Positions 16,006-35,825 of a stretch of 64,000 nt of DNA are shown one piece after another. The number at the start of each line of letters is the position of its first letter. Positions within the stretch are counted from its first letter, which is position 1. The translations under genes and the position numbers were made by a program. The DNA lies in contig NZ_CP053835.1 of the NCBI RefSeq assembly GCF_013201725.1, forward strand, positions 1,736,001 to 1,800,000, in the 5' to 3' direction. The notes under the pieces are model-generated. The model saw only the letters and a list, made by a program, of their open reading frames with translations. It was not told the origin of the DNA and did no database searches. Source of the DNA: Arcobacter defluvii. Lineage in GTDB: Bacteria > Campylobacterota > Campylobacteria > Campylobacterales > Arcobacteraceae.

Positions 16006-16030
16006 AAAAAGAGGTTAAAACTCTCTTTTT
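16006..16030 (-). terminator. Rho-independent terminator of the adhesin operon
   Basis: Read on the minus strand, an AAAAAGAG / CTCTTTTT stem with a 9-nt loop is followed by AGTTTTTTTTT, immediately after the lapD-like stop at 16029. It separates the adhesin operon from aroB, which is transcribed in the same direction. Confidence 0.75.
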
Positions 16031-18576: not shown

Positions 18577-21500
18577 TTAAATTATTTGATCTTGAATGTT
18601 TTGTTCAACTTTAACTTGAACAGAATTGTCATTAGTATTTGTATAAATATCAAATCCACTATCAGTTCCTGAACCAGCTGTTTTTGACCATCCTGAATCA
18701 GAAAATGAAACTTTATCTTCATTTGTACCAGTAATTTTTAAAGTATTGCTACTATCAGTCATATTAAGTACATCTTGTAAAGTTATATTTTCAAGTTTAT
18801 TTTCTCCACTTTGACTTAAATCAATAGTATTAATATTTTTTAAAGTACTATTTGATGATAAATCAGCAATTTTGTCAAAATCTAAGCTAACTCCTGAATC
18901 AAGAGTGAAATTACCTGAAACATCTGAAAGTTTTAAATCAAATGTTTTAGCTAAACTACTATCACTTTCATCTGTATTTGTTCCATCTGTATCAACTGTT
19001 TTAGCAGTTACTGATACACCATTTACAGATTTATCATGTAATAATTCAATATTATTTATTTGATCAAATGCTATTCCTTCTATAGTCCATTTACTTCCAC
19101 TTTCATCCCAACTAACATCAATAGCTGTACCATTAGCTGTACCATTATATCTAAATTGAGCAGATTCATCTAATCCAGTTAATTCAAGACTCATAGTTTC
19201 ACTTCCATCTGTATCTTTCATATTTGCATTTAAGTTTAAACTCACCCATGAATAAGCATCACCAAATGTCATAGTTGGATCAATAGTTACACCATCAGCA
19301 ACAGCATTTATATGTCCTGTCACATTTACTGCAACAGGAGTTGATGTTGATAAATTCTCTTCACTAATTGTAAATTTAGTTATAAAATCAAAATCACCTG
19401 ACCAATTTGATGGAGCATTAATATAAACTTCTGGCATACTTCCATCAGAAGAAGCTGGAATTAACCATTTGTTTCTTGTAACATTTGTATCTGTATCAAT
19501 ATTTGGAGTTAAATCAAATGTACCATTTGTTACACCAATATTTGTTGCCATTACTAACTCTGAACCAACTTTATACCAAACTGTAAATCCATTTGGTACT
19601 TCATCTAAAATAATATTCCCAACTTTTTCAGAACCATCTGTAAATGTACCTGCTGTTATTTCAAGTTTAACTGGATTTGCTAAAGTTGTACTTCCAACTG
19701 TAACTGCTACATCTTCAACTCCTGTTGCAGTTACAACAGAAGCATTCAATTCTACATCAATTATAGGTGTCACAGATATTGTTGTACTACCTTTTGAATC
19801 TAATGTTACACTACTTCCTGTTTCTTTATTTTGAACACTTACTTCAAAAGTTACATTTCCATCTCTATTTGTTGCAGGAGTATAAACTAATCCTTCAATT
19901 GGAGTATCAACAGTAAATGCAGCAACTCCTGATTTTGGAGTAATTGTAAATGTACCATCTCCATTATCAGTAATATTATATTTTCCTGAACTATCTGTTA
20001 ATGTTCCTTTTGTTCCTTCTCCATTAGCATTAGAATCTAACCAATTTTCAGTTACTTTTATAGTAATACTATTTCCTATAAGTTCTGTTTTAGTTCTATC
20101 ATTAGGATTTGATAAAGTTATAGAAAGATTACTTGTACCATCTTCATTTATATTATCAGCATTTACACTAATAGTCATCTCATCTGTTAAAGGTAATATA
20201 GTCTGTGTTGATGATACTGTATTTCCTTTATCAAATGCTCCATTATAATATGTTGCAATATTAGCTGTAAATGTAAAGTCACCTTGTAAACTACCTTCTT
20301 GAAAAGAGTTCATATCTTTTGGAGTTGTTATTTTTACATTTGATAATTGAGTATTCATATCAGCTGCATTTCCACTTCCAACTACTACATAGTAAGTTTT
20401 TCCACCCTCTTCATAAGAGTAATCATAGCCCGTGATTGTTGAACCATCTGGAATATCTGAAATAGTAATAACTGCTCCACCATTTCCATCAGTACCACCA
20501 ACTACTAATGCCTCTGCTAAATTAAACTCTGTATCTTCTGTAATATTAGCTGCTTGAACTGCTAATTCTAAATCAGCTGGTGTTCCAGGTTGAGTTCCAG
20601 GAGTATAAGTTTTTTCAATATGGATAGTTTGAGAGGCACTTTTAATTTCTGCATTAACATCTTGTGTATAAGTTGTTATTGTTATATCTCTACTATCAAA
20701 ATCTGCACCTTGATTTACTTTAAATGTAATATCTTGTAATGCACCATCTGTATCTAAAGTATTATCAGCTGGATTTGAGATAACCCAAATACCATTATGT
20801 TCACTTCCTGAATATCCATAATATGTAGCTCCTATAACTTCTACACCCATAGGAACACCTGTTATAACTATTTTTTGTACTGTTTCACTTCCATCTGTAT
20901 CAGAACTTGTAGTTGTAACTGGAACTTTAAATTCTGAATTTTCAGTTGTAACAGACACATTTGTATCAGTTATTGTTACATTCCCTGATTCTTTTGTAAT
21001 TGTTCCAACAATTAAACTTGGAGCATCTGTAACTGCTTGAACATTTACTGTATGAGTATGAGTAAAGTCAGCTGTAACATCTGCTGTTCCAGTTGCAGTA
21101 TCTTTTACAGTATAAACAACTGTTAAATCAAAGTTATCTGTACTATCAGCATCATTTACAGTTGTATTTTTTGCATAAATACTATCTGCTTGTTCTGGTG
21201 TTAATATATAATATCCTCCACTTAATGTTGAAGTTATAGATTGAGTCATAGCTGAATCTAAATATAACTCATATCCAGAAGGAACATCTGAAGCTAAGAT
21301 TTTAACTGTTGTTATAGTTTCACTTCCATCTGTATCAGTTAATGATGGAGCTATATTTATCTTATTTGCACTTCCATCTGCATCTTCATAAATAGTAGAA
21401 GAATTTGTAACTGACACATCATCTACAACTGGATTAACAAAAATATTTATAGTTTGAGTATCCCAAGTTTTGCTATCATTTTCTCCTGCTTTTTCAGTAG

Positions 21501-24500
21501 TTACATAAGTTAAATCAAAACTTGCACTTCCACTAAAATTTTCTGGAACAATTATTTTGATTTTTCCAGCTATTATATCACTTGCTTTTACAACATACAT
21601 TCCATCTTCTATATAATATGGACTACCTGTATCTACTGTAAATCCAGTTGGTAGAGCTATTTTAACTGTTAATTCTTCGCTAGCATCAGAAGAAGCAAGA
21701 TTAGCTGGTGTTGTATATATGTCTTTTAGATTAAGCTGATTATCTTCATTTACATTTATATTTGTATTTAAATTTATTCCAACTGGAGCATCTGCAATAT
21801 TTTTTACAATAACATCTATATTTTTTGTAGCCGTCCAAGCACTTGTAACTTCTGTTGTTCCATTATTATCAACTGTTTGAGAAGATACTTTTAATGTATA
21901 ATCTGTATCATCATTGTGTGCTGGAATAAATTTTGATAATTTATCATTTTGATAATCATTTATTTCAATTGTATATTTTCCACTATTTTGAGTCACTGTT
22001 ATATTTCCCGAAGATACAAAATCTTTATCTACTAATACCCAATCACCTGTTCCACTGTTCAAACTTTTATCAAATACATATAATACCGAACCATCAGGGA
22101 TATCTTCTATTTTTACATTAAATGTTTCAGAACCATCTTTATCATCTGAACTCACTTTAATATTTAAAGCTATTCCAGCTGATGGATTATTGATACTATC
22201 ATTAGGATTTGAACTATTTCCGTTATCTCTTCCCGCATCTTCATATCCAACTGATTGTGCTACTTGAATAGTTGCTAATTGAGCTACAGGTTCAACAGTA
22301 ACTTCAAAGTTAACACTATCACTTTCTTCTATTCCTGCAGTATCAGTACTATCAACACCTTTATCTTGCGATGTTAAAGTAATAGTTCCAGTTACTTTTC
22401 CACTCCAATAATCAGGGAATTTCATACTAAAATCAGGATCTGCTGTTTTATTTGCATTATCATCAAAGTCTATTGTATATTCATCATTTACATCTTTATA
22501 AACTTTAACATCTGTTTTATCACCAATTGTTATATAAATATATTCAGGTAATTCAGTATTTGTACCTGCTGTAAGTTTTATAGTATAACTTCGTTTTTCA
22601 GAACCATCTAAATCTAAACTTGTATCCGTACCACCTACCGATGATGTTCCACTTGTATTAGTTAAAAGTGCTTTTAAATCTATTGATGTATCAATAACTG
22701 AACCACTTTGTGGATTTGGATTGTACTCTTGAATATTATTGAATACAATAGTTTTTGTTCCTGTATCTACTGATTGTACTTGAGAATTTATAGTACCATC
22801 CCAATTTAAAGTAAAACCATCTGTTACTGGATTTATTTTTACAGTCATATTTGCTGTTGTTTCATTTTCTACTTGACTTCCATAAGTAGCTGTGTCTAGT
22901 GGTATACCACTATCATCTACTTCATAAGAAGTTACATCAATTTTGATTTTTATATCTGTATCATTGTCTTCAGCATGTTGGATTTGTAATGATTCATACT
23001 CTGCTTTTGTAAGATATAAAGTATTAGATGCTCCTAATTGTACATCTTTATGATGATAACTATAATCTACGCCTGATTTATCATCTGTTAAAATCACAAT
23101 CTTTAAGGTTTGATTTGCAGAATCTATTGTTGCAATTTCATCTGTACCACTAAAGATTTTTGCACCATCAACATTATTTCCATTTGTAAATGTAAGTGTT
23201 ATTTCTCCATTTCTTTCAGGATTATCTCCTGTACCACTATTTTTATCAGTTTGATCTTTTGATAAAGTAGGAGTAATTAATCCTAAAGGTATTTTATTTT
23301 CTCCTTCTGCTTGATTACCAGTATTTGTATCATTATAAGTTGAAGCATCTTCATAAGAAGTTACATCATTTACTGTAATTGTTGGAGCATCTGCAACTGG
23401 TTTAACCTCAATATTAACTCTTCCTGCTGCTGTATCACCATCAAAGTCACTAACAGCATATTCAAACCAAGGTTTAGCATTGTAATTACTATAATCTTCA
23501 ACTGGTGTAAAAGTTACAGTCCCATCACCATTATTTGTAAGTGTTCCTATTTCTTTTGTACTATCATTTGGATCTGTAACTATTTTAGTTTGACCATCAC
23601 TTAATGTTGTATAAGTTGTACCATCACCATTTACTCTAATTTGAATCTCACCATCTTTAAAGCTTTCAGGAGAGATTACAATATTTAAAGAATTATCTTC
23701 ATTAACTTCAACATCTCTATCTACATTTATTGGTAAAGAGTCATTTACTTTTACTTTAAATGTTACAGTATTACTTGTTTGTCCTTGGTCTGTTATTTTA
23801 AATCCAAATTCAAAAGTTAAATCGTCATCGTTTGTAGCATCTGCTGAATCTCCTGCTATTGGATGGTCAATGTTTTTGTATTGAGTATAAGTATAACTAT
23901 CTTTTGTAGTTGTACCACTAGCAATATCACTATCTTTATTTAAAACTATTTCAAATACTTTGTTTGAATTAGCTACTGCCCCATTACCCACATCAGCACC
24001 TATATATCCAATAATTTTATTACCTATAGTTTGATAATTAATTGTTTGCCCACCAGCTTTTAAGTTTCCTAATCCATAATCTGTTGTACTAGCAAAATCT
24101 CCTTGATAAATCTTTGTTGCAGTATCATCAAAAGATAAACTATAGTTGTTATCAGGATTATTTGGTTTTTGAATACCTAAAGATTGAGTATCTGTTATTG
24201 TTGAATTAGCATTTGTCACATCAAAATCATCTTCATCAACAGAAGCATTTACAGGAGTTCCTAAAGTAATCCCATCTTTGATAGTTCCTGTTGTAGTTTT
24301 ATCTGCATGAATCGCAACATTTTCAAAAGCTCCTGATTGAGTAACACTAGAAATAGTTACATTATAAATTTCATTCCCTTCTAAAGTAAAATCATCTTTA
24401 GTTACATTTGTAAAATCACTATGATTTGTTCCACCATTAATTACCACTTGTTTTACTATTGTAGATAAATCACTTTCAGTAAAATCTCCACTATTTACAG

Positions 24501-27500
24501 TATAAGTTAAATTTACGGTTACAGATTGTCCAGCTGGAACAGTTACAGGATTTCCATCTTTATCAACTAAAGTTATTGTATGTACTAAATTTCCACCCTC
24601 TATTGTAGAAGGTGTTTGTGTTATTTTTACATAAACCGTATCATCTTGTCCATAGTTTCCATTTGTCGGATCATCATTTCCTGTTCCAGTATCTGGTTGT
24701 TCAACATTTGCTGGATTATCTTTTATAGTTGAAATCACTATATCATTTGAAGTATCAATAGATGGTGATTCATATGGTGAATTTATTAAATCTGTAATTT
24801 TAACAGTAAAGTTTTCATCACCTTCTGCATAATAATCGTCTTTTGCATTCACACTAAATACTGTTCCTACTGTTGTCGATACAACTGTCGTATTATCATA
24901 ATCTGTTCCAGCTGTTGCATCTTTATCACTACCATCAGTTATTGTTCCATAATTTACAGTTACTGTTCCTCCTTGAGTTGCAAGAGGTTTTCCATCATTA
25001 TCTACTGCAACTGCCATATAGTAAAGATTTCCACCTTCAGGAGTTTCATTTGTATTATCTATATTTAAAGTTCCATCAGGATTTGTAATATCTGCTATTG
25101 TAGTTGTAAGTAAATTTACAGCAACTAAAACAATTTTTACAGGATCTACATCTGATTCTGTAGTCTGATTAGATGAATTATCATGAATAGTTGTAGTTAC
25201 ATCTTTATAATCACCATTTTTATCACCAATTTTTACATTTTCAAACTCACCTGTATTCTCTATATCTGTTATTGTAAGCTTAAATTTTTCTCCATCATCT
25301 TTATATGGATCATCAATTGTGTCAACAGTAAAAGTATTTGAAGAATTATTAGCTGGAATTGTAACTTCTATTGTATTACCATTATTATATTCTGTATCAC
25401 CATCTTGTGTAGTAGTATTATTGTATGTTACTGTTATTTTCGTATCTTTTGTAACCTTTACTTCATTTCCATCTTTATCTACAAGTTTTATAGTATAACT
25501 TGAAGTTGTATTCCCTTCATTTACATCTGCAGGTCCAGTTATAATTGCATAAACAGTATCTTCTTCTCCATAATTCCCATTTGTCGGTTCATCTGTTCCA
25601 GTTGATGTATCTGGTTGATCAATTTTTGCTGGATTATCTTTAATTGTTCCAATAGTTGTTATTTTATCACTTGATGCACCATTTGCTACTGTATGAGATG
25701 CTATATTTTCAAATGCATTACCTGAATTATCTATATGATTTATAGTAATTTTTAAGCCTTCATCACCTTCTGCATAATAATCATCTTTAGTTGTTACTTC
25801 AAATTCAGTATAGCTAGTCCCACCAATAATAGTTATACTTGTCTTAGGTGTATAATCTTCATTTACAGTAGCTTCTTTTGATGTATTTCCCTCATAAGAT
25901 AAATCTACTGTTAAAGTTTTTCCTGCTGGTACTTTTACCTCTTCTCCATCTTTATTTACTATTACAACTTTATATTTTAAATTACCACCTTCATTTGTAG
26001 TATCTGTAATTGCTTCAATTTTCACAAATAATTTTTCATCATGTATTGTAGTAGTTACAGGAGTTGTGTCAATATTTACACTTTCATAATTTCCACTATA
26101 AGAGTTATTATCTATTACAACTTTATATTTTTCTGTTGATTCTGAAGATAAATCTTTGAAAACTTCTGTACTAAAACTTTGTCCTATCGATACTGATGTT
26201 TTTGGTGTATTATTAAAATCTTGTGTTCCATCTGTTAGAGTTTTAGTTGGAGCACCTGTTGCTGTATCATTTTGGAAACTTATATCTATTGTACCTGTTT
26301 GTACAGAAAGTTTTGTAGAATCATTAAAAGTTGTAGTTCCATTTTCAAATGCATATGCTATATAGTTTGCATTTGTTCCCTCTTCTGCTTCGTTTGCTAA
26401 AAGATAATTACCATTTCCATCTTTTATAACATTTCCATTTTCATCTGCTGCAAAAAGTTTAATAAGTACTATTTCTTTGTCACTTTCTTGATTGTGATTT
26501 GTAGGATCATTTGGATTATGGGGAGTAGTGTTATCAACGGGATTACTATTATCTTTTATTGTTGTAGTAACTGCTTCATTATTTATAGTCACATTTTCAT
26601 ATATAGGTGTTGTTGGATGAGTATATGAACCACTATTTATTGATACTGTATATATCTCATTATTATCAGAAATATAGTCATCTACAGTTACTACTTCAAA
26701 AGCAACTCCTATATTTACAACTTTATCTTTAACTAAAATAAAATCTTCTGAACCATCTTCTTTTGTTTGTGTTGTTACACCCACTGCTGTTCCATTTGCT
26801 GTATCAACTGTTACTGTTCCACCTTGTAGTGATAACTTTGTTTCTGTTGTAAATGTTGTACTATTTGGTTCAAATGCTAATGCCATATATTTTGCATTAT
26901 CACCTTCATTTACTTCATTTACTATTTTATATGTTTTTCCATCTGCTTCAAGTATTGGATTTCCAGAAGCATCACAAGCTACAAGTTTAATTATTACAGA
27001 TTCGTGATTTGCTTCAACACCATCATTTGGATTATTTGGAGTATTATCTGTATCATCTAAAATAGTAGTAGTAACATCTTTATTATTTCCATTTTTATCA
27101 CCTATTACTACATTCTCAAACTCATTTGTATCTACTTTTGTAATTGCTACATTATATTTTTCACCATTATCTGCAAAATAATCATCTATACTTTCTACTG
27201 TAAATGTATTTGATGAACCATTTGCTGGAATTGTTACGTTTATTGTATTATTGTTATTATATTCCGTATCACCATCTTGTGTAGTAACATTTGTATATTT
27301 TACTGTTACTGTTGTTGGATTTGTAACTACAACTGCATTTCCATCTTTATCTACAAGTTTTACTGTATATGTTGTTGTATTACCTTCATTTACTGTTGTT
27401 GCACCTGTTATAATTGCATATACTGTATCCTCTTGTCCATAATTTATTCCATCATCTGGATTATTTGGATTTGAAGGATCTGTTGGTATTGTTGGTTGTT

Positions 27501-29001
27501 CTGTTGTTGATGGATTGTCTAAAATAGTAGTAGTAACATTTTTATTATTTCCATTTTTATCACCTATTACTACATTCTCAAACTCATTTGTATCTACTTT
27601 TGTAATTGCTACATTATATTTTTCACCATTATCTGCAAAATAATCATCTATACTTTCTACTGTAAATGTATTTGATGAACCATTTGCTGGAATTGTTACG
27701 TTTATTGTATTATTGTTATTATATTCCGTATCACCATCTTGTGTAGTAACATTTGTATATTTTACTGTTACTGTTGTTGGATTTGTAACTACAACTGCAT
27801 TTCCATCTTTATCTACAAGTTTTACTGTATATGTTGTTGTATTACCTTCATTTACTGTTGTTGCACCTGTTATAATTGCATATACTGTATCCTCTTGTCC
27901 ATATCCACCTGGTTCAGTTGGTGTTCCAGGTGTTCCATTTGATGGATTATTCACTGGATTATCTAAAATTGTTCCTATACCTTGTGGTTTAGAAATATTT
28001 GCATTTCCAACAACATTAGAAATATTAATTTTCATTGTTTCACCATTATCTGATACATAATCATCAGTAATTGGAACTTTTATAGTAACAGTTCTACTTC
28101 CTGCTGGTATTGTTATTGTTCCTCTGACATCAGTATAATCAATACCATTATTTGTAGCTGTAATTGGTGAAGTTACATAATCAAAAGTTACAGGAGAAGC
28201 AACACTTCTATCTAAAGAAACTGTAAATACTAAAAATCCTTCACTTTCATAAGAACTAACATCATTCACACTTAAATTTCCAATAATTACTGTTGGTGTT
28301 TCTATCACAGGAGGTGTTACAACTGGTTGTGGAGTCGGAGTTGGAGGAGTTGGAGTCGGTACAGGAGGATTTGTATATTCAGGTCTATCTATATTTCCAG
28401 GAGATGTTAATCTATCTTTTGATTCATTTTCAAAAAAAGATTTATCTTCAAATACTTGAGTTCTTGCTTTAAATTGAGCATTTCTTAAATCACTTACTAT
28501 ATCAGTTGCATTTCCATCTCTTGCTTGAAATTCACCAGTTGGGGCTGTTTCATCTTCTGCTTCTTCTTGACCTTCTGCTGTTTCTTCTTTTGTAACATCA
28601 CTGTTATTTGCATCAGTAAAAGCACCTTCATCATTGGCATCTTTTTGTTCATTTGTAAATTCAGCATCTCGTAAATCACTTACAACATCAGCATTTGAAT
28701 TATGTTCATCAGCTTTTAAATCTAAACCTTCTCTTGTAAAAAACAACTCTTCTGTTCCAAAAGCTGTTTCAATTAAAGAAGAATCTATTAATTGTTTTTG
28801 ACCTTCACTTAAAACAATAACATCATTTCCAGAAAGAAGAATTTCTATTTTTGATGATGAAGAATTTCCATTGTCACCATAAACCGTATCATTCTCATAG
28901 ATTGTATCACCTTCTTGTAAAACTCTAATATTACCATTTTCATCTTTTGCATGAAAAATTCCACTTGATAAGCTTTTTACACTTCCTGCAATTGTTGCCA
29001 T
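18577..29001 (-). CDS. Giant LapA-type type I secreted adhesin, 3474 aa
   Basis: Cell-surface biofilm adhesin. Residues 1-90 form a retention module (starts MATIAGSVKSLSSGIFHAKD) that would plug the outer-membrane channel. An acidic segment follows (100-195) with two copies of a VSDLRxAxF motif, then a Pro-Thr linker (210-235). Residues about 240-1580 are Calx-beta-type modules, each ending with DDxxxxxGExxxVxI and TTIxDN. Residues 1580-3380 are T1SS/cadherin-like modules with repeated DTDGSET calcium-type motifs. The end (about 3380-3474, LENITLQDVLNMTDSSNTL onward) resembles the type I secretion target of VCA0849-type adhesins. No RTX nonapeptides (GGxGxDxL) were found. AAGGA precedes the ATG. 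No cysteines were noticed. Confidence 0.92.
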   Translation of the reverse strand: MATIAGSVKSLSSGIFHAKDENGNIRVLQEGDTIYENDTVYGDNGNSSSSKIEILLSGNDVIVLSEGQKQLIDSSLIETAFGTEELFFTREGLDLKADEHNSNADVVSDLRDAEFTNEQKDANDEGAFTDANNSDVTKEETAEGQEEAEDETAPTGEFQARDGNATDIVSDLRNAQFKARTQVFEDKSFFENESKDRLTSPGNIDRPEYTNPPVPTPTPPTPTPQPVVTPPVIETPTVIIGNLSVNDVSSYESEGFLVFTVSLDRSVASPVTFDYVTSPITATNNGIDYTDVRGTITIPAGSRTVTIKVPITDDYVSDNGETMKINISNVVGNANISKPQGIGTILDNPVNNPSNGTPGTPTEPGGYGQEDTVYAIITGATTVNEGNTTTYTVKLVDKDGNAVVVTNPTTVTVKYTNVTTQDGDTEYNNNNTINVTIPANGSSNTFTVESIDDYFADNGEKYNVAITKVDTNEFENVVIGDKNGNNKNVTTTILDNPSTTEQPTIPTDPSNPNNPDDGINYGQEDTVYAIITGATTVNEGNTTTYTVKLVDKDGNAVVVTNPTTVTVKYTNVTTQDGDTEYNNNNTINVTIPANGSSNTFTVESIDDYFADNGEKYNVAITKVDTNEFENVVIGDKNGNNKDVTTTILDDTDNTPNNPNDGVEANHESVIIKLVACDASGNPILEADGKTYKIVNEVNEGDNAKYMALAFEPNSTTFTTETKLSLQGGTVTVDTANGTAVGVTTQTKEDGSEDFILVKDKVVNIGVAFEVVTVDDYISDNNEIYTVSINSGSYTHPTTPIYENVTINNEAVTTTIKDNSNPVDNTTPHNPNDPTNHNQESDKEIVLIKLFAADENGNVIKDGNGNYLLANEAEEGTNANYIAYAFENGTTTFNDSTKLSVQTGTIDISFQNDTATGAPTKTLTDGTQDFNNTPKTSVSIGQSFSTEVFKDLSSESTEKYKVVIDNNSYSGNYESVNIDTTPVTTTIHDEKLFVKIEAITDTTNEGGNLKYKVVIVNKDGEEVKVPAGKTLTVDLSYEGNTSKEATVNEDYTPKTSITIIGGTSYTEFEVTTKDDYYAEGDEGLKITINHIDNSGNAFENIASHTVANGASSDKITTIGTIKDNPAKIDQPDTSTGTDEPTNGNYGEEDTVYAIITGPADVNEGNTTSSYTIKLVDKDGNEVKVTKDTKITVTYNNTTTQDGDTEYNNGNTIEVTIPANNSSNTFTVDTIDDPYKDDGEKFKLTITDIENTGEFENVKIGDKNGDYKDVTTTIHDNSSNQTTESDVDPVKIVLVAVNLLTTTIADITNPDGTLNIDNTNETPEGGNLYYMAVAVDNDGKPLATQGGTVTVNYGTITDGSDKDATAGTDYDNTTVVSTTVGTVFSVNAKDDYYAEGDENFTVKITDLINSPYESPSIDTSNDIVISTIKDNPANVEQPDTGTGNDDPTNGNYGQDDTVYVKITQTPSTIEGGNLVHTITLVDKDGNPVTVPAGQSVTVNLTYTVNSGDFTESDLSTIVKQVVINGGTNHSDFTNVTKDDFTLEGNEIYNVTISSVTQSGAFENVAIHADKTTTGTIKDGITLGTPVNASVDEDDFDVTNANSTITDTQSLGIQKPNNPDNNYSLSFDDTATKIYQGDFASTTDYGLGNLKAGGQTINYQTIGNKIIGYIGADVGNGAVANSNKVFEIVLNKDSDIASGTTTKDSYTYTQYKNIDHPIAGDSADATNDDDLTFEFGFKITDQGQTSNTVTFKVKVNDSLPINVDRDVEVNEDNSLNIVISPESFKDGEIQIRVNGDGTTYTTLSDGQTKIVTDPNDSTKEIGTLTNNGDGTVTFTPVEDYSNYNAKPWFEYAVSDFDGDTAAGRVNIEVKPVADAPTITVNDVTSYEDASTYNDTNTGNQAEGENKIPLGLITPTLSKDQTDKNSGTGDNPERNGEITLTFTNGNNVDGAKIFSGTDEIATIDSANQTLKIVILTDDKSGVDYSYHHKDVQLGASNTLYLTKAEYESLQIQHAEDNDTDIKIKIDVTSYEVDDSGIPLDTATYGSQVENETTANMTVKINPVTDGFTLNWDGTINSQVQSVDTGTKTIVFNNIQEYNPNPQSGSVIDTSIDLKALLTNTSGTSSVGGTDTSLDLDGSEKRSYTIKLTAGTNTELPEYIYITIGDKTDVKVYKDVNDEYTIDFDDNANKTADPDFSMKFPDYWSGKVTGTITLTSQDKGVDSTDTAGIEESDSVNFEVTVEPVAQLATIQVAQSVGYEDAGRDNGNSSNPNDSINNPSAGIALNIKVSSDDKDGSETFNVKIEDIPDGSVLYVFDKSLNSGTGDWVLVDKDFVSSGNITVTQNSGKYTIEINDYQNDKLSKFIPAHNDDTDYTLKVSSQTVDNNGTTEVTSAWTATKNIDVIVKNIADAPVGINLNTNINVNEDNQLNLKDIYTTPANLASSDASEELTVKIALPTGFTVDTGSPYYIEDGMYVVKASDIIAGKIKIIVPENFSGSASFDLTYVTTEKAGENDSKTWDTQTINIFVNPVVDDVSVTNSSTIYEDADGSANKINIAPSLTDTDGSETITTVKILASDVPSGYELYLDSAMTQSITSTLSGGYYILTPEQADSIYAKNTTVNDADSTDNFDLTVVYTVKDTATGTADVTADFTHTHTVNVQAVTDAPSLIVGTITKESGNVTITDTNVSVTTENSEFKVPVTTTSSDTDGSETVQKIVITGVPMGVEVIGATYYGYSGSEHNGIWVISNPADNTLDTDGALQDITFKVNQGADFDSRDITITTYTQDVNAEIKSASQTIHIEKTYTPGTQPGTPADLELAVQAANITEDTEFNLAEALVVGGTDGNGGAVITISDIPDGSTITGYDYSYEEGGKTYYVVVGSGNAADMNTQLSNVKITTPKDMNSFQEGSLQGDFTFTANIATYYNGAFDKGNTVSSTQTILPLTDEMTISVNADNINEDGTSNLSITLSNPNDRTKTELIGNSITIKVTENWLDSNANGEGTKGTLTDSSGKYNITDNGDGTFTITPKSGVAAFTVDTPIEGLVYTPATNRDGNVTFEVSVQNKETGSSVTLDSKGSTTISVTPIIDVELNASVVTATGVEDVAVTVGSTTLANPVKLEITAGTFTDGSEKVGNIILDEVPNGFTVWYKVGSELVMATNIGVTNGTFDLTPNIDTDTNVTRNKWLIPASSDGSMPEVYINAPSNWSGDFDFITKFTISEENLSTSTPVAVNVTGHINAVADGVTIDPTMTFGDAYSWVSLNLNANMKDTDGSETMSLELTGLDESAQFRYNGTANGTAIDVSWDESGSKWTIEGIAFDQINNIELLHDKSVNGVSVTAKTVDTDGTNTDESDSSLAKTFDLKLSDVSGNFTLDSGVSLDFDKIADLSSNSTLKNINTIDLSQSGENKLENITLQDVLNMTDSSNTLKITGTNEDKVSFSDSGWSKTAGSGTDSGFDIYTNTNDNSVQVKVEQNIQDQII
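27056..27441 (-). repeat. Adhesin tandem repeat, copy nearer the C-terminus
   Basis: 386 bp nearly identical to 27518-27903, 462 bp away. The one difference I noticed by eye is C versus T in the codon that makes Asp here and Asn in the other copy (GNNKDV / GNNKNV). It encodes one Calx-beta-like module, residues about 520-649. Confidence 0.9.
27518..27903 (-). repeat. Adhesin tandem repeat, copy nearer the N-terminus
   Basis: Partner of the repeat at 27056-27441; encodes residues about 366-495. Both copies begin in protein sequence with QEDTVYAIITGATTVNEG. Spacer sequences between copies differ, so the repeat unit is the module plus a variable linker. Confidence 0.9.
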
Positions 29002-29027
29002 AGTTTTTCCTTTTTTGATTTTTTTCT

Positions 29028-29033
29028 ATTATA
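29028..29033 (-). promoter_or_regulatory. Possible -10 box for the adhesin gene
   Basis: TATAAT on the minus strand, 27 bp before the adhesin ATG, with AAGGA between. There is no convincing -35, so this would be an extra promoter within the operon if used. Confidence 0.35.
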
Positions 29034-29105: not shown

Positions 29106-29705
29106 TTATTTAGAAAATAATCCTGCAAAAGATAATCTATCTTTTACATTTAATTTTTCATAAATATGCTTTATATGTGTTTTTACAGTATTTATTGATA
29201 TATCTAATTCTTGACTAATATTAAGATTTGTATATCCATTTTTTAGTAACTTTGCTATTTTTTTCTCAGTTTTTGTTAAAATTTCAAAAAGTTTTTCATC
29301 ATCATTTTTATTATCTTTGTTTTCGACCATACTTTTTAACAATTGTGTTGTAATTTGTGGCATTAACCAAATATAATTATTAGAAATAGCTTCAACGGCT
29401 GAATTTAAATATGAAGAAGTCATCAAACAATTTCCATAACCTTGCACACCTTTTTCAAGCCATTTTCTTGCATTTTCAAATTCAGGAACTCTTTTTAAAA
29501 CTAAAATCTTATTTAAATTTTTCAATAAAAGTGATATTATAAAATCACTATTTTCTAAATTTACACAATCACTTAAAATCAATATTGAATTTTTTAGATT
29601 AGATAAATCTTCATAATCTTCTATAATATTTGTTTCATATTTGTTTAAAATATTTTCCCATCTAGAAATAAGTGCAATATCATTGCTATAAAGTGCTATT
29701 TTCAT
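29106..29705 (-). CDS. CsgD/LuxR-type transcription regulator in the adhesin operon
   Basis: 199 residues. Residues 1-120 resemble a receiver fold but lack the acidic pocket and phospho-acceptor pattern (MKIALYSNDIALISRW; ILSDCVNL), as in CsgD-like regulators. The C-terminal LuxR helix-turn-helix (about 135-199) is clear: TKTEKKIAKLLKNGYTN, ISQELDISINTVKTHI, IYEKLNVKDR. It probably controls the adhesin gene just downstream or its own operon; the ligand or signal is not visible. Its ATG overlaps the HlyD stop (TAATG), so it is translationally coupled to the secretion genes. Confidence 0.85.
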   Translation of the reverse strand: MKIALYSNDIALISRWENILNKYETNIIEDYEDLSNLKNSILILSDCVNLENSDFIISLLLKNLNKILVLKRVPEFENARKWLEKGVQGYGNCLMTSSYLNSAVEAISNNYIWLMPQITTQLLKSMVENKDNKNDDEKLFEILTKTEKKIAKLLKNGYTNLNISQELDISINTVKTHIKHIYEKLNVKDRLSFAGLFSK

Positions 29706-31084
29706 TATCTTTCCGTAAATGTATATTGTTTTGTTTTTAATATTGGTTTTAAAATATAATCCAATATTGTTTTTTTACCAGTAATAATATCAACATCAGC
29801 AACCATACCAGGGATAATCTTCATAGATTTATCTTTCTCACCAATATAATTTTTTTCTGTTTCTATCCTTACCAAATAATATGTTTTATCATCTTTTTCA
29901 GTTATGGTATCTGGACTTATATTTATAACATTTCCATCTAAACCACCATAAATAGAGAAATCATATGCAGAAAATTTTACAATTGCTTTTTGTCCATGAT
30001 AAATAAATGCAATATCTTTAGGTAAAATTTTTACTTCAACAATCAATTTATAATCTGTTGGAACAATTTCTATTAAATCTTGTGCAGGTTTAATTGCACC
30101 TCCAATCGTATTTATATGAAGTTTTTGAACTATTCCATTTGAAGGAGATTTTACAATTGTTCTTAAAACTTGATCTGTTGATGCAACTGAATTTGCTTCC
30201 ACATCTTTTAATGAAGTAATCGTTTCATTTAATTTTTTTCTTGTTTCTGAATCATTTATTTGATATGTTTCATCAATTTTTTTGTTTATTTCTAAAATCT
30301 CTGATTCAATTTTTGTTACAGATAAAATCACACTTTGAAGTTTTTGTCGAGCATCACTTTGTTCTCTTTGAAGTTTTAGAAAATCAACTTGTGAACGAAT
30401 TCCTCTATCAACCATTGGTTTAGTCATTTCAACTTCTTTTGAAATAGCATCAACAGAAAATCTCATATGAGCAATAGTTTGTCTAGCATCTTTTAGTTCA
30501 TTTTCTTTTTGTTTAATTTGCTCTTTTAAAATCAATATTTTTGATTCTAGTTGCTTTACATTTGTTTGAAATAACTCATTTTCATTATTTAAAAAATCAT
30601 TTAGTTGTTGATTATCTGTTAATTCATAAGTAAAAGTTTCTCTTTTTAATTCAGCTTCTAATCTTTTTATCTGAGCTTGTAAATACAATGATTTTAGTTC
30701 ATTTGAAGCTGCAGTAGAGTTTGATTTTTCATTACTAATTTTTATTAAAATCTGATCTTTTTCTACAAAATCACCCTCTTTTACTAAAATCTCAGAAACT
30801 ATTCCACCTTCTAAATTTTGAACTATTTGATTTTGACCATTGGGAACTACTTTCCCTGTTCCTCTTGCTATCTCATCTATTTTTGCTACTGATGCCCATA
30901 TCAAAAATATAGTAATAGTTATTAAAAAAGATATAAGAATCCAATGTAATTTTTTAGGTCTTGTATGAATTACGGCTGCACTTAAACTATTCATATATTC
31001 ATAATCATTCAAATTTAATGCTTTTTTAGGTAATTTAGGAGTTTTTTGAAAAAAAGCAGAAAATATCTCTTTATAATTAGCCAT
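29705..31084 (-). CDS. HlyD-family periplasmic adaptor of type I secretion system
   Basis: 459 residues. A cytoplasmic N-terminus (1-44), one membrane helix (about 45-68, LISFLITITIFLIWASVA) and then the lipoyl half-motif RGTGKVVPNGQNQIVQNLEGG. A long coiled-coil hairpin (about 140-290) follows, then the second lipoyl half and beta-barrel (VKSPSNGIVQKLHINTIGG; GLDGNVINISPDT). It links the inner-membrane exporter to the TolC-like channel. Equivalent to LapC of the Lap system. It overlaps the upstream exporter gene by 8 nt. Confidence 0.92.
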   Translation of the reverse strand: MANYKEIFSAFFQKTPKLPKKALNLNDYEYMNSLSAAVIHTRPKKLHWILISFLITITIFLIWASVAKIDEIARGTGKVVPNGQNQIVQNLEGGIVSEILVKEGDFVEKDQILIKISNEKSNSTAASNELKSLYLQAQIKRLEAELKRETFTYELTDNQQLNDFLNNENELFQTNVKQLESKILILKEQIKQKENELKDARQTIAHMRFSVDAISKEVEMTKPMVDRGIRSQVDFLKLQREQSDARQKLQSVILSVTKIESEILEINKKIDETYQINDSETRKKLNETITSLKDVEANSVASTDQVLRTIVKSPSNGIVQKLHINTIGGAIKPAQDLIEIVPTDYKLIVEVKILPKDIAFIYHGQKAIVKFSAYDFSIYGGLDGNVINISPDTITEKDDKTYYLVRIETEKNYIGEKDKSMKIIPGMVADVDIITGKKTILDYILKPILKTKQYTFTER

Positions 31085-33236
31085 TATTTGCTCCTAATTT
31101 TCTTATTACTTCTATTTTTTCATCATCTAAAATTTTTTCACCATTATTCATAACTATTATTCTTGTAACTAAATCTAGCATATTCATTTTTTGAGTAACT
31201 AAAAGTAGTGTTCTATTTTCTATGTTTTCTTTTAAATTAGTTAATATATGATTTTCACTTGTTTGATCCATAGCATTTGTAGGTTCATCAAATAACCAAA
31301 TATTAGAATCATTTATTAAAGCTCGTGCAATTCCAACACTTTGTCTTTGACCTCCTGAAAGTCCAGCACCTCTTTCACCTATTGGCATATCATAACCCAT
31401 TGGATGAAGTTTAACAAGCTCATCTGTTCCACTTATTTTTGAACATTCAAGCATCCATTCATCATCAACAAATTTATAGTTTCCTAAAATATTGTTTTTT
31501 ATGCTATTTCTGAAAAGATGAATATCTTGAGGAACATAACTTATTTTTTTTCTTAAATCAGCAGGATCTATTTGAGAAATATCAATTCCATCAATTAAAA
31601 TTGAACCACTTTCTGGCTCATAAAGTTTCAATATCAATTTTGCAATAGTTGATTTTCCAGAACCAATTCTTCCAATAAAAGCAACTTTTTCACCCTCTTT
31701 TATAGAAAAACTAACATTTTTCAAAGCATAAACTTCACTATCTGGATATTTAAAAGAAACATTTTTAAACTCAATATTTCCTCTTAAAGATGGTCTTTTT
31801 ACAAACTCTCTTGCAATTGGTCTTTCAAGAGGTTTATTCACAATTTCATCAAGCATTTTAAATGAAGTTTTTGCATCTTCATAATTTGTAATTAATCCAA
31901 CTATTTGTCCCATTGGAGAGATTGCCCGACCTGATAAAATCATTGTTGCAATTAAACCTCCCATTGTAAGTTCAAAATTTTGAATTTGATAAACACCAAA
32001 AACAATAATTAAAACTGTATTTATTCCAACTAATAATCCTGTAATTGTAGGTATTGAAGAAGATATTATTCTTGATTTTAAACTTTTATTTGCAATTTCA
32101 CCAGTTGATTCTTCCCAATTAAATTGAATATTTCCTGACATTCCTTGGGCTTTTATAGTTTCAATATTTTGTAAGGCTTCTATTAGTATTCCATTCTTTT
32201 TTGCACTTGCTTCATAAGTACTTTCAATACTACTTTGTAGAGGTTTTTTAATCATTAAAGCATAAATTATAATAATCAAAATAATAAATATTGGAACTAA
32301 AACCAAAATTCCTGAAATATAAAATATTACACATAAAAAAAGTATTGCAAATGGAAAATCAATCAAAACACTCAAAGTTGCATTTGTCAAAAAACTTCTG
32401 ATACTATCAAAGCTTTTTAAATTATTTGCAAATGATCCAACAGATTTAGGATGAGCTTGCATTTGTAAATCTAAAACTTTTTCAAAAATTATAGAAGACA
32501 TAATTATGTCACTTTTTTTACCAGCCATTTCTAAAAAATATGTTCTTAGAAATTTTAAACTCGCATCAAGTAGAAAAACTACAACTATTCCAATTGTAAA
32601 AACAAGAAGTGTTTCTTGGGCATTATTTGGAATAACTCTATCATAAACATTCATTGTAAAAAGAGGTGTAGCAAGAACAAATAAATTTATTAAGATTGAA
32701 GCAAGAATACAATCTAAATAAATTTTTTTGGAAAAGCCTAAAGTGCTCCAAAACCAATGTTTTTGATTTGATATATCTAATGTTTTTTTGCCATTTTCAT
32801 GTTCATATTCGTATGCTTTTTTTAACATAAAAGCAAAACCCAAATATTCATTTTCTAATTTATCTATCTCAATCCACTCTTCTAAAGGTTCATCAATACC
32901 TGCAAAAATAATTTTTACTTTAGTTCTATCATCATTAAAACTATCTAAAATACAGCTATTTTCATTTGATAAAAGTAAAATTACAGGTAACTGTAAATTT
33001 AAAAAATCTTTTATTGGTTTTTCAATTATTGTAGTTTTTAATCCTGCTCTTGAAGCAGCTCTTGAAAATAAGGATTTTGAATTAGTTTTAGAAAAAAGCA
33101 TTTGATCTGTCAGGTTAGAGCCAATTGGCAAACCTGACAGTAAAGATTCACTAGAAAAAGGTTTATGAAATAATCTTGTATATAAAACTAAAGATTCCAA
33201 TAAGGTATCTTTAGTTTTTAAAATTTTATTACTCAC
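31077..33236 (-). CDS. lapB: LapB-type type I secretion ABC exporter
   Basis: 719 residues. The N-terminal domain (1-135) is C39-peptidase-like but lacks the catalytic Cys, as in exporters that do not cleave a leader. The membrane domain (about 165-450) has six hydrophobic segments. The nucleotide-binding domain (480-719) shows FKYPDSEVYALKNVSF, Walker A GRIGSGKST, Q-loop YVPQDIHLFR, signature LSGGQRQSVGIARAL and Walker B IWLFDEPTNAMD. It powers secretion of the giant adhesin. The start is GTG, with AAAGGTGAAGA just upstream. It lies 24 bp after the TolC-OmpA fusion gene. Confidence 0.93.
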   Translation of the reverse strand: MSNKILKTKDTLLESLVLYTRLFHKPFSSESLLSGLPIGSNLTDQMLFSKTNSKSLFSRAASRAGLKTTIIEKPIKDFLNLQLPVILLLSNENSCILDSFNDDRTKVKIIFAGIDEPLEEWIEIDKLENEYLGFAFMLKKAYEYEHENGKKTLDISNQKHWFWSTLGFSKKIYLDCILASILINLFVLATPLFTMNVYDRVIPNNAQETLLVFTIGIVVVFLLDASLKFLRTYFLEMAGKKSDIIMSSIIFEKVLDLQMQAHPKSVGSFANNLKSFDSIRSFLTNATLSVLIDFPFAILFLCVIFYISGILVLVPIFIILIIIIYALMIKKPLQSSIESTYEASAKKNGILIEALQNIETIKAQGMSGNIQFNWEESTGEIANKSLKSRIISSSIPTITGLLVGINTVLIIVFGVYQIQNFELTMGGLIATMILSGRAISPMGQIVGLITNYEDAKTSFKMLDEIVNKPLERPIAREFVKRPSLRGNIEFKNVSFKYPDSEVYALKNVSFSIKEGEKVAFIGRIGSGKSTIAKLILKLYEPESGSILIDGIDISQIDPADLRKKISYVPQDIHLFRNSIKNNILGNYKFVDDEWMLECSKISGTDELVKLHPMGYDMPIGERGAGLSGGQRQSVGIARALINDSNIWLFDEPTNAMDQTSENHILTNLKENIENRTLLLVTQKMNMLDLVTRIIVMNNGEKILDDEKIEVIRKLGANNG

Positions 33237-33260: not shown

Positions 33261-35825
33261 TTATTTTTTAATTCTTATAAGTTCAGCTTCAATTCTTCTA
33301 TTTAAAGCTTGTCCTTCTGGTGTATCATTGCTTGCAATTGGTTCAGCAAAACCTTTTCCAATTGTTTGAATTCTTGAAACTTCAACTCCATTTGCAACTA
33401 ATAAATCTTTTATTGCATTTGCTCTTTTTTCAGATAATTTTTGATTGTAAGAAGCTGAACTTTTATCTTTACTTGCATGTCCTGTAATTACTGTATTAAA
33501 CTCTTTATTATCATTTAAATATTTTGCAAAAGCTAATACTTTCTCTTTTGTATCTTCTTTTAGAACAGCCGAATTGTTTTCAAATAAAACTTCTAAATTT
33601 ATTTTATTTGTACAACCATTTTCATCAACTGTATAACCAGCTGGTGTATTAGGACATTTATCTAATTCATTAATAACACCATCATTGTCATCATCTAAAA
33701 TAACTTTTTCAGCTTTTTTAGGTACATAAAGGGCAATTGCAACTACATTATTAAGAGTTTTATCTCCTCTATTTGTTTCTAAAAATGCTTTATCATAATC
33801 AACTCTTGATTCTTCAATAATTACATCCTTATTAACACCATTCTTTACTAATTCATCTTTTATATTTTTTGCATAATTTGCAGCTTTGTTGTAACTCTCT
33901 TCTTTATCTTCCATAGCTTGTGTATGTCCAATAACTGTAACTTTAATATCTTCATCTTTGTATTTATTAATTACTTTTGCAACTTCAGATATATTGTTAT
34001 CATTTGAATCAAAATTATCCATATTTACAAAATCAAATCTTTTTATTAGTGCAAAATTATCATACATTAAATGATTATCTAAAGGTGTCGATTTTATATT
34101 TTTGTTTGCTGCCACATTAAATTCATAATCATATAAACCTAATTTTTCAGATTTTTTTGGACTTTGTTCAGAATAAGCAATTACACTATTTAAATAATCT
34201 TCTTTATTTACAGTAAATCTATTTACTGAATTCTCAACTTCACAACCATTTGCATCTACAGTTGCACCAAATACTGTTTCTGGACATTTATCTTTAGAGT
34301 TTGGAACACCATCTAAATCAGAATCTTCTTCTTTTTGAGAACATCCATAAGGAGTAATATCATCATTATTTTTAGAATTATCACAAATATCTAAAGAATC
34401 AACTATTCCATCATTATCAACATCAAGTTTTACAGGTAATTCATCTTTTATTACCTCAAAAGGTTTAAGTGTTGGAGAAGCTATTTTGTCATAAGCTTGT
34501 TCATCTTCAACAACTGCATTTACAAGTAATCCCATCGCATCTAATATTCTATATTGTGCAAAAAGCTTATCCATTTGTGCATTTATAATTTGACTTTTAG
34601 AATTTACTAAATCATTTTGTGCAGATAATAAATCAAGTAAAGTTCTTCTTCCCATCTCATATTCACTTTGATAACTATCTAAAGTTTCTTGTGAATATTC
34701 ATAATATTTGTATAACTCTTCAAGTTGTTGTCCTAACATTTCATAAGCTGACCAAGATAACTCTAATCCTTCGATTGTTTGTCTTTTTAAATCTCTTTGT
34801 AATTCAACTTCTTTATTTATCGTACTTTTACTTTTTTGAACGTCAGCTGTATGAGCTCCACCTTTGTATAAATTCCAACTAAGAACAACATATGCTTTTA
34901 ATCTATCATCTGGCATATCAAAATTATTTCTTCTATTAACATCATTAAATACTTGTTCTACTTCTAAATCTACTGTTGGATAAAATTTACTTTTTTTCTC
35001 TTTATATAAAGCCTGTGCACCTTTGATATTAAAATTACTTACTAATATTGAAGGATTATTTTGAATCGCATACATTGTTGCTCTTTCTTTACTTTCAGGC
35101 ATTGCATAGTTTAATGCAGGAAGCGTAAAAGAAGAAATATCTGCATCTCTACCTAACAATCTTTTAAATCTAAACTCTTTATCTATTGTATTATTTTTTT
35201 GAACAACTAAATTTGATTTTGCAAGTGATAAAGAAGCATAAATTTTTGTCATTTCAGATTTAGTTGTTAATCCTTGATCATATAAAGATTGAACATCTTT
35301 ATAAATTTTTTCATTTATAACTACATTATCTTTTGCATTTTGTAATAATTGATAACTTCTAACAACATCTAAATATGCTCCTACCATTTGAAATGCAATA
35401 TCATTTGCATTTTCTAAATAATGATGAGCTGCACCTAAAATTCTTGCTTTTTGATAATCAATTTTATGAGTAGTACTAAATCCATTAAAAATATTTTGTG
35501 TAAGTTTTAATGACTGTGTGTAGTGATTGTATCCTTCATCTATAACATTATGATTATAACTACTTTCATTTGTTTCATCTTTTAAATTACCAGCTTCATT
35601 TCTCCCAAAAGTTGCTCTATAATCAAGAGATGGAAGCCATTCTGATTTTGTAATTTCTAAATCTTGTTGTGTTTCATTAAAGTTTTTAAGTCTTTCTTGT
35701 ACTATTGGATTTGTATCCAATGCTTCTAAAACACTCTCTTTTAATGTCAAAGCTTGTAAATTTATACTAAATAAACAAACACTTGCGACTACACTTATTA
35801 GTCTCTTCTTAACTTTTAATTCCAT
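33261..35825 (-). CDS. TolC-type outer-membrane channel fused to TSP3 repeats and OmpA domains
   Basis: 854 residues, about twice a TolC. The signal peptide is about 1-25 (ends INLQALTL). Residues about 27-430 are a TolC/LapE efflux channel with two repeats (starting SVLEALDTNPIVQERL and with SWNLYKGGAHTADVQKSK). Calcium-type thrombospondin-3 repeats follow at about 466-492 and 498-525 (DVDNDGIVDSLDICD; DSDLDGVPNSKDKCP), with a third at 712-741. A degenerate OmpA-like domain lies at about 578-700. A canonical OmpA peptidoglycan-binding domain is at 745-854 (NLEVLFENNSAVLK; ITGHAS; NQKLSEKRANAIKDLLV; NRRIEAEL). Probably an adhesin exit channel anchored to the wall. First gene of the adhesin operon. 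Confidence 0.92.
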   Translation of the reverse strand: MELKVKKRLISVVASVCLFSINLQALTLKESVLEALDTNPIVQERLKNFNETQQDLEITKSEWLPSLDYRATFGRNEAGNLKDETNESSYNHNVIDEGYNHYTQSLKLTQNIFNGFSTTHKIDYQKARILGAAHHYLENANDIAFQMVGAYLDVVRSYQLLQNAKDNVVINEKIYKDVQSLYDQGLTTKSEMTKIYASLSLAKSNLVVQKNNTIDKEFRFKRLLGRDADISSFTLPALNYAMPESKERATMYAIQNNPSILVSNFNIKGAQALYKEKKSKFYPTVDLEVEQVFNDVNRRNNFDMPDDRLKAYVVLSWNLYKGGAHTADVQKSKSTINKEVELQRDLKRQTIEGLELSWSAYEMLGQQLEELYKYYEYSQETLDSYQSEYEMGRRTLLDLLSAQNDLVNSKSQIINAQMDKLFAQYRILDAMGLLVNAVVEDEQAYDKIASPTLKPFEVIKDELPVKLDVDNDGIVDSLDICDNSKNNDDITPYGCSQKEEDSDLDGVPNSKDKCPETVFGATVDANGCEVENSVNRFTVNKEDYLNSVIAYSEQSPKKSEKLGLYDYEFNVAANKNIKSTPLDNHLMYDNFALIKRFDFVNMDNFDSNDNNISEVAKVINKYKDEDIKVTVIGHTQAMEDKEESYNKAANYAKNIKDELVKNGVNKDVIIEESRVDYDKAFLETNRGDKTLNNVVAIALYVPKKAEKVILDDDNDGVINELDKCPNTPAGYTVDENGCTNKINLEVLFENNSAVLKEDTKEKVLAFAKYLNDNKEFNTVITGHASKDKSSASYNQKLSEKRANAIKDLLVANGVEVSRIQTIGKGFAEPIASNDTPEGQALNRRIEAELIRIKK

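Follow-up and report, generated by a model that had tools for sequence, protein, structure and literature searches.

A TolC-type channel with two OmpA-fold domains in one chain in a Lap-type adhesin operon of Arcobacter defluvii

Our analysis of the window, by which we mean the whole stretch of 64,000 nucleotides studied here, showed that a single minus-strand gene at 33261-35825 encodes a chain running from a TolC channel through TSP3-type motifs and a degenerate OmpA-fold domain to a C-terminal OmpA domain. We lean towards the view that this fused gene provides the outer-membrane channel through which a Lap-type system exports its adhesin and that its periplasmic C-terminus serves as a peptidoglycan tether. 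Binding of the tail to peptidoglycan is something we infer, and load bearing by the tail in adhesion would be plausible. A tether to the wall is favoured because fused modules of wall type, both OmpA and SPOR, recur on TolC proteins elsewhere. Such built-in domains offer a direct way to test how a giant adhesin resists pull when an outer-membrane pore is all that holds it: natural relatives exist in fused, split and module-free form, and the test would be removal of the tail. The fused channel also points to a possible role for OmpA-family genes that neighbour such channels.

TolC channels are trimers, so that one channel would carry three flexible tails. The inner, degenerate OmpA-fold module of each tail could act as a spacer or as a protein-contact module, and the outer OmpA domain would still contact the stem peptide through Asn and Arg. 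The tails would fix the channel to the wall and, with the adhesin held in the channel by its N-terminal module, fixation of the adhesin to the wall would last until LapG cuts it.

The fused chain and its operon

The fused gene, its parts and the other genes of the operon are located as follows.

33261..35825, minus strand: tolC-ompA fusion gene, 854 aa (Pfam, TIGR01844)
34491..35825, minus strand: leader and TolC-type channel, residues 1-445 (Pfam, TIGR01844)
34530-35072 and 35151-35741, minus strand: the two OEP repeats of the TolC part (Pfam)
34377..34424, minus strand: first TSP3-type motif, residues 468-483
34278..34325, minus strand: second TSP3-type motif, residues 501-516
34143..34277, minus strand: linker, residues 517-561, joining the TolC part to the stretch that matches double-OmpA proteins
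33720..34142, minus strand: degenerate OmpA-fold domain, residues 562-702, starting LGLYDY
33648..33695, minus strand: third TSP3-type motif, residues 711-726
33297..33587, minus strand: C-terminal OmpA domain, residues 747-843, with N794, R801 and S785
31077..33236, minus strand: type I secretion ABC transporter of the LssB/LapB type (TIGR03375, 851.5 bits, cut-off 693.1)
29705..31084, minus strand: HlyD-type periplasmic adaptor (TIGR01843, 392.5 bits, cut-off 208.65)
29106..29705, minus strand: LuxR-type (GerE) regulator, conserved in the operon (Pfam)
18577..29001, minus strand: giant adhesin, 3474 aa
17918..18520, minus strand: LapG-type periplasmic cysteine protease (C93; PF06035, 55.1 bits, cut-off 27)
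16029..17921, minus strand: LapD-type c-di-GMP receptor with LapD_MoxY_N, GGDEF and EAL (PF16448, 93 bits, cut-off 25)

An earlier, sequence-only reading had described a TolC channel, three TSP3 motifs and two OmpA domains in one chain, and this description was borne out by the open reading frame (ATG start, zero internal stops), the Pfam and TIGR01844 matches and the motif count. OEP/PF02321 matches two stretches with 175.2 bits (cut-off 22), OmpA/PF00691 two stretches with 98.1 bits (cut-off 27.2; best at residues 747-843) and TSP_3/PF02412 reaches 32.1 bits (cut-off 25), while residues 24-445 match the type I secretion TolC model TIGR01844 at 245.3 bits, above its cut-off of 225.15. The three TSP3-type motifs (D.D.DG..D..D, starting at residues 468, 501 and 711) compare with 0.003 expected per composition-shuffled protein, and a chance origin was rejected. 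Unfused and SPOR-tailed TolC relatives carry a motif like the first of them. The same reading had proposed that the frame be checked near 34440 (residue 462) for an error that merged two genes; a sequencing or assembly merger is excluded, since each of the 26 other aligned orthologues reads through the joint without a stop.

The genome is a single contig of 3.02 Mb with 24 OEP matches, among which the fused chain is the channel of the Lap-type operon. We assign the operon to the Lap type on the presence of LapG-type, LapD-type and LssB/LapB-type transporter genes, the first two scoring below the cut-offs of their equivalog models (NF045674 for LapG, 170.4 bits against 320; NF045673 for LapD, 229 bits against 1020). 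An Rfam search of the window gave zero matches at the gathering score. The 3474-residue adhesin of the earlier reading is indeed present; its N-terminal module is conserved and reads T-A-E-G at 28570-28581, where four other loci (L051, L052, L126 and L127) have TAAG. In Lap-type systems, the LapG site in the N-terminal retention module is a di-alanine motif. Among near relatives of the window, the presumed site varies between TAEG, TTEG, TSEG and TTAG.

The double fusion is present in 27 of 104 family genomes, the window's included, with a further tail fragment at a contig edge in a 54% complete genome (G025) that is counted among the 77 others; the orthologues are 68-92% identical in the TolC part. 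Public records place it on plasmid pACLO of Arcobacter cloacae, in Poseidonibacter lekithochrous and in Aliarcobacter vitoriensis. The plasmid carries the whole locus, including a 10.3-kb gene at the place of the adhesin and LapG and LapD types, and its record gives the fused gene no name beyond 'TolC family outer membrane protein'. By a simple count method, and with sizeable synonymous divergence in most of the seven pairs compared, dN was lower than dS in every segment, the degenerate domain included: dN/dS was 0.022-0.132 for TolC, 0.109-0.353 for the middle domain and 0.159-0.463 for the last OmpA domain.

The fusion keeps close company with the genes of adhesin retention. Of the 27 fusion genomes, 26 have a close LapG (at least 265 bits, the next value being 160), against none of the 77 other genomes; more distant LapG matches are present in 58 of these 77. 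A match to the first 211 residues of the adhesin was found in 26 of 27 and 7 of 77, respectively. One genome, G125, is the sole fusion carrier that has neither. The genomes are related, so Fisher p values for this co-occurrence overstate independence and are a guide only. Adjacency is looser than co-occurrence: at least seven fusion genomes have the adhesin or LapG/LapD elsewhere in the genome. In five of them (G003, G024, G012, G015 and G027) some 30 to 140 kb separate the channel from the LapG and LapD types, and the adhesin match is at yet another place; G006 has LapG and LapD near the channel but its adhesin matches far away, and G022 has LapG on another contig and a broken adhesin beside the channel. 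The idea that the fusion needs the adhesin next door was rejected on these grounds.

Two adhesin loci deserve a description of their own. In the locus of G022 (contig 49), the adhesin is divided into ORFs of 1505 and 786 aa; both lie inverted between the fused tolC and the gene for the transporter, and a 319-aa ORF and another LuxR-type gene accompany them. In genome G000, two stretches of contig 1 (1248500-1256500 and 1847500-1856500) are 100% identical over at least 8001 bp in opposite orientation; both hold an ORF that is TraG/VirD4-like by eye and a 1198-aa adhesin-like ORF, the first part of which is 99.1% identical (347 bp) to the adhesin start at 28683-29028. This ORF is probably a mobile adhesin with the same retention module as that of the window.

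Fold and ligand residues of the OmpA domains

Structure prediction of the tail with AlphaFold2, which the sequence-only reading had called for, gives the middle domain (about 562-702) an OmpA fold, with best matches of Z 14.3 to 3td5 and 5u1h. Its kinship was detected by fold only, a PDB sequence search with this domain having returned an unrelated enzyme as best match (E 0.065) and the OmpA-type 9v99 at 0.35. pLDDT is below 50 at model residues 100-149, corresponding to residues 540-589 of the chain. The last domain models well and has Z of about 16 to peptidoglycan-binding domains (fold comparison; Foldseek), its matches including TagL of the type VI system, Pal and an OmpA complex.

The last domain had been called canonical, which its family score supports and its ligand residues do not. 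The sections of the PorE paper cited here give Asp576, Asn584 and Arg591 as the side-chain contacts to the stem peptide, which is held by main-chain amide contacts as well (PMC7192894); a second paper also bears on the Asp of peptidoglycan-binding OmpA-type domains (PMC6572160). The counterparts in the last domain are S785, N794 and R801, and these diaminopimelate-contact positions are Ser, Asn and Arg in 27 of 27 fusions, S785 (codon 33471-33473) replacing the Asp of GHTD. We accordingly class the domain as OmpA-like and not as a canonical peptidoglycan-binding OmpA_C member, because the Asp side-chain contact is lost throughout the clade. Since main-chain amides also contact the peptide, weak binding of the stem peptide in the absence of the Asp carboxylate would be possible. 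In the middle domain, Q636 and A652 occupy the ligand Asp and Arg positions and all 27 fusions are without both residues, so that binding of the stem peptide by this domain in the established manner is not expected.

By eye, the Asp is kept in seven of nine other OmpA-family proteins of the same genome, and Ser occurs in two of ten separate-gene relatives, which are the sister pair L140/L141. The loss of the Asp probably predates the fusion, because this pair is split and has Ser too. Elsewhere in the Campylobacterota, the Asp is kept, again by eye, in fusions L167, L170, L172 and L174 and replaced in others, by Ser in L052, L164 and L165 and by Asn in L166, L129 and L130. As a general rule, loss of the Asp through fusion was rejected: the split pair has Ser and other fusions keep Asp.

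These residues bear on an alternative that we consider rather unlikely, namely that the tail binds protein partners and not the wall, with the pair of OmpA folds docking LapG, LapD or the retention module of the adhesin and the TSP3 calcium motifs setting stiffness or state. The loss of ligand residues in domains that both keep dN/dS below 0.5 (seven pairs) would fit such docking, as would the strong co-occurrence of the fusion with LapG, a loop after GHAS that differs in length among fusions and the role in translocating BpfD and BpfG that the Shewanella authors propose for a separate OmpA protein (PMC4523816, in the part cited). It sits less well with the retention of N794 and R801 in 27 of 27, with an Asp kept in nine of ten fusions of the Marinobacter class (tails compared by eye) and with SPOR, another wall-binding type, at the same place on TolC.

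Split relatives and recurrence of fused channels

The nearest clue to the origin of the fusion comes from loci where the same domains are divided between two genes (G110 on contig 1, G097, and G124 on contig 17). There, a TolC of 514-518 aa with the first TSP3-type motif is followed immediately by a gene of 324-359 aa that encodes the degenerate OmpA, TSP3 and the last OmpA. The second proteins begin with a leader-like stretch (leaders being assigned by eye), followed by YDYxY in L140 and L143 and YDDSY in L141. In the fused chain, LGLYDY stands where the presumed mature start of the double-OmpA proteins would align, and there is no such leader. In a tree of the TolC part, the 27 fusions form one clade (100/100) with the split pair L140/L141 (G110 and G097) as its sister (98/93), and the third split locus, L143, is placed elsewhere. 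The fusion thus looks like TolC joined to the mature form of an adjacent double-OmpA protein. We would explain it by gene fusion, in which tolC most likely fused with the gene behind it, whose product was a secreted periplasmic protein bearing two OmpA-fold domains; this second protein would have lost its leader, and a TSP3-bearing linker would join both parts.

A further possibility, unlikely in our estimation, is that the fusion is neutral, the neighbouring genes of an operon having merged by chance with continuation of the two-gene function. The sister state, with the same domains in two adjacent genes, would fit this, as would G110 and G124 (the latter with 6% estimated contamination), in each of which one locus has the fused form and another the split form. 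Against it stand the intact state of the fusion in all 27 clade members found and the number of state changes described below, with different linkers and different wall modules.

The search for similar fusions that had been suggested for this gene was run and found them in other Campylobacterota and in the Marinobacter class (which, if it is the GTDB class, takes in the beta group). The fusion is therefore not unique to the window's clade: TolC-OmpA chains occur in the Marinobacter class and SPOR-tailed TolCs in Campylobacterota. TolC-TSP3-OmpA chains are found in other Campylobacterota, in some cases followed by a separate double-OmpA gene, as is one chain of different order, TolC-OmpA-TSP3-OmpA (L170). 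Five Campylobacterota TolC proteins end in SPOR-type domains (E 2.7e-6 to 4.8e-4); two of the five narrowly miss the Pfam cut-off (20.9 against 21). Extensions of another kind are the Sel1-type repeats of L175 (Pfam) and L179 (by likeness), and one genome (G002) encodes TolC twice in almost identical form, once with a long tail resembling that of SPOR-tailed relatives and once with a short tail that lacks it.

The 369 genomes of the Marinobacter class gave 13 TolC matches with an ORF of at least 600 codons, ten of which end in one or two OmpA domains; the others have a SPOR tail (L289, E 4.1e-10), an OmpA before TolC (L283) and another long C-terminal extension (L286). LapG- and LapD-like genes lie in the fetched stretch of all ten fusions, or nine of nine without the centre genome G470, which was picked because it is fused. 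LapG is near only seven of 20 shorter, unfused TolC loci, or six of the 13 that have an LssB-like transporter in reach, in a sample that took 13 of 13 long-ORF loci and 20 of 32 shorter rows, where the 20 include loci that are not of type I and one (L302) that is only 6.7 kb long. A scan of the 15-kb stretches of the seven unfused LapG-bearing loci revealed no OmpA module, and a wall module would thus not be needed for every such system.

The 68-row TolC tree of the Campylobacterota, built from TolC matches with more than 380 aligned residues and without three loci that overlap others (L181-L183), requires at least nine changes of the fused state, and a joint tree of 103 rows, a quick one with long branches, at least 13, gains and losses being indistinguishable on both. 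A single origin of all 40 fused rows in the 68-row tree, three of which (L065, L176 and L177) match OmpA only in divergent or degenerate form, was rejected (p-AU 3e-6). Loci were chosen partly for long ORFs, and the share of fused rows is therefore not a frequency. In the joint tree, five of the ten Marinobacter-class fusions form one group (L278-L282), and the four of these tested have an Ig/cadherin-like linker (Pfam) where the window's chain has TSP3.

The recurrence of fusions in distant bacteria suggests that such pores are tied to the wall, and the presence of wall-binding module types, in different forms and several lineages, on adhesin-type channels is the best argument for such a tie; the lost Asp and the Lap loci with no visible wall module speak against a strict need for a tether. 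It is possible, though we put this more tentatively than the tether itself, that channels of retained adhesins are often moored to the wall, TolC having repeatedly gained OmpA, doubled OmpA or SPOR on different linkers and become a load-bearing anchor in Campylobacterota and the Marinobacter class. The tail could also bind the wall for assembly or placement of the channel, holding the exporter in an opening of the mesh, and not for resisting pull on the adhesin, a reading that we regard as possible but doubtful. A precedent would be the type IX secretion machine, for which the OmpA-type domain of PorE has been proposed as the tie to the wall (PMC7192894, in the part cited), and the fusion is kept where adhesin genes are far off. 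The fusion nevertheless tracks LapG and the adhesin module, within its own family and, for LapG, in the Marinobacter class, which is why a tether serving retained adhesins fits better than one serving export in general.

Relation to known adhesin and export systems

A published description of such a TolC-OmpA fusion was not found in the open-licence literature searched. The operon resembles the Lap-type system (LapA/LapEBC/LapG/LapD) and the BpfA-AggABC-SO4321-BpfG-BpfD cluster of Shewanella in its channel, LssB/LapB-type ABC transporter and HlyD adaptor, as well as in the giant adhesin, the LapG- and LapD-type genes and, as far as the Shewanella paper is cited here, an OmpA-family gene in the cluster; the presumed LapG site is TAEG in the window against TAAG in the Lap-type system. 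The sequence-only reading held that OmpA is a separate gene in other Lap systems. This is true of Shewanella oneidensis, where the part of the paper cited places a separate OmpA-family gene in the adhesin cluster (PMC4523816), but not of ten Marinobacter-class loci, in which it is fused near LapG and LapD. The separate arrangement is also seen in Vibrio plasmids, where an OmpA gene follows TolC. In the same part of their paper, the Shewanella authors state that the role of the OmpA protein is not known and guess that it helps to translocate BpfD and BpfG (PMC4523816). The window differs from Shewanella in having two OmpA-fold domains inside the channel chain itself.

The two-gene loci of Campylobacterota (G110, G097 and G124) share with the window the order of TolC, first TSP3-type motif, degenerate OmpA, TSP3 and OmpA, but are unfused, with a leader of its own on the second gene product. 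The fusions of the Marinobacter class (e.g. L276 of Marinobacter halophilus) are alike in having TolC with C-terminal OmpA near LapG/LapD-like genes and differ in having one OmpA domain in nine cases and two in one (L282), with the Asp kept in nine of ten. Further afield, the AtaA-TpgA pair of Acinetobacter is similar in that the adhesin has a partner with an OmpA_C-like domain, thought to link it to peptidoglycan, whereas AtaA is a trimeric autotransporter and its partner a separate lipoprotein (PMC5861075, in the part cited). Similarly, the OmpA_C-like domain of PorE has been proposed to anchor the type IX export machine to the wall, but PorE is a separate lipoprotein and keeps all three ligand residues, Asp576, Asn584 and Arg591 (PMC7192894, in the part cited).
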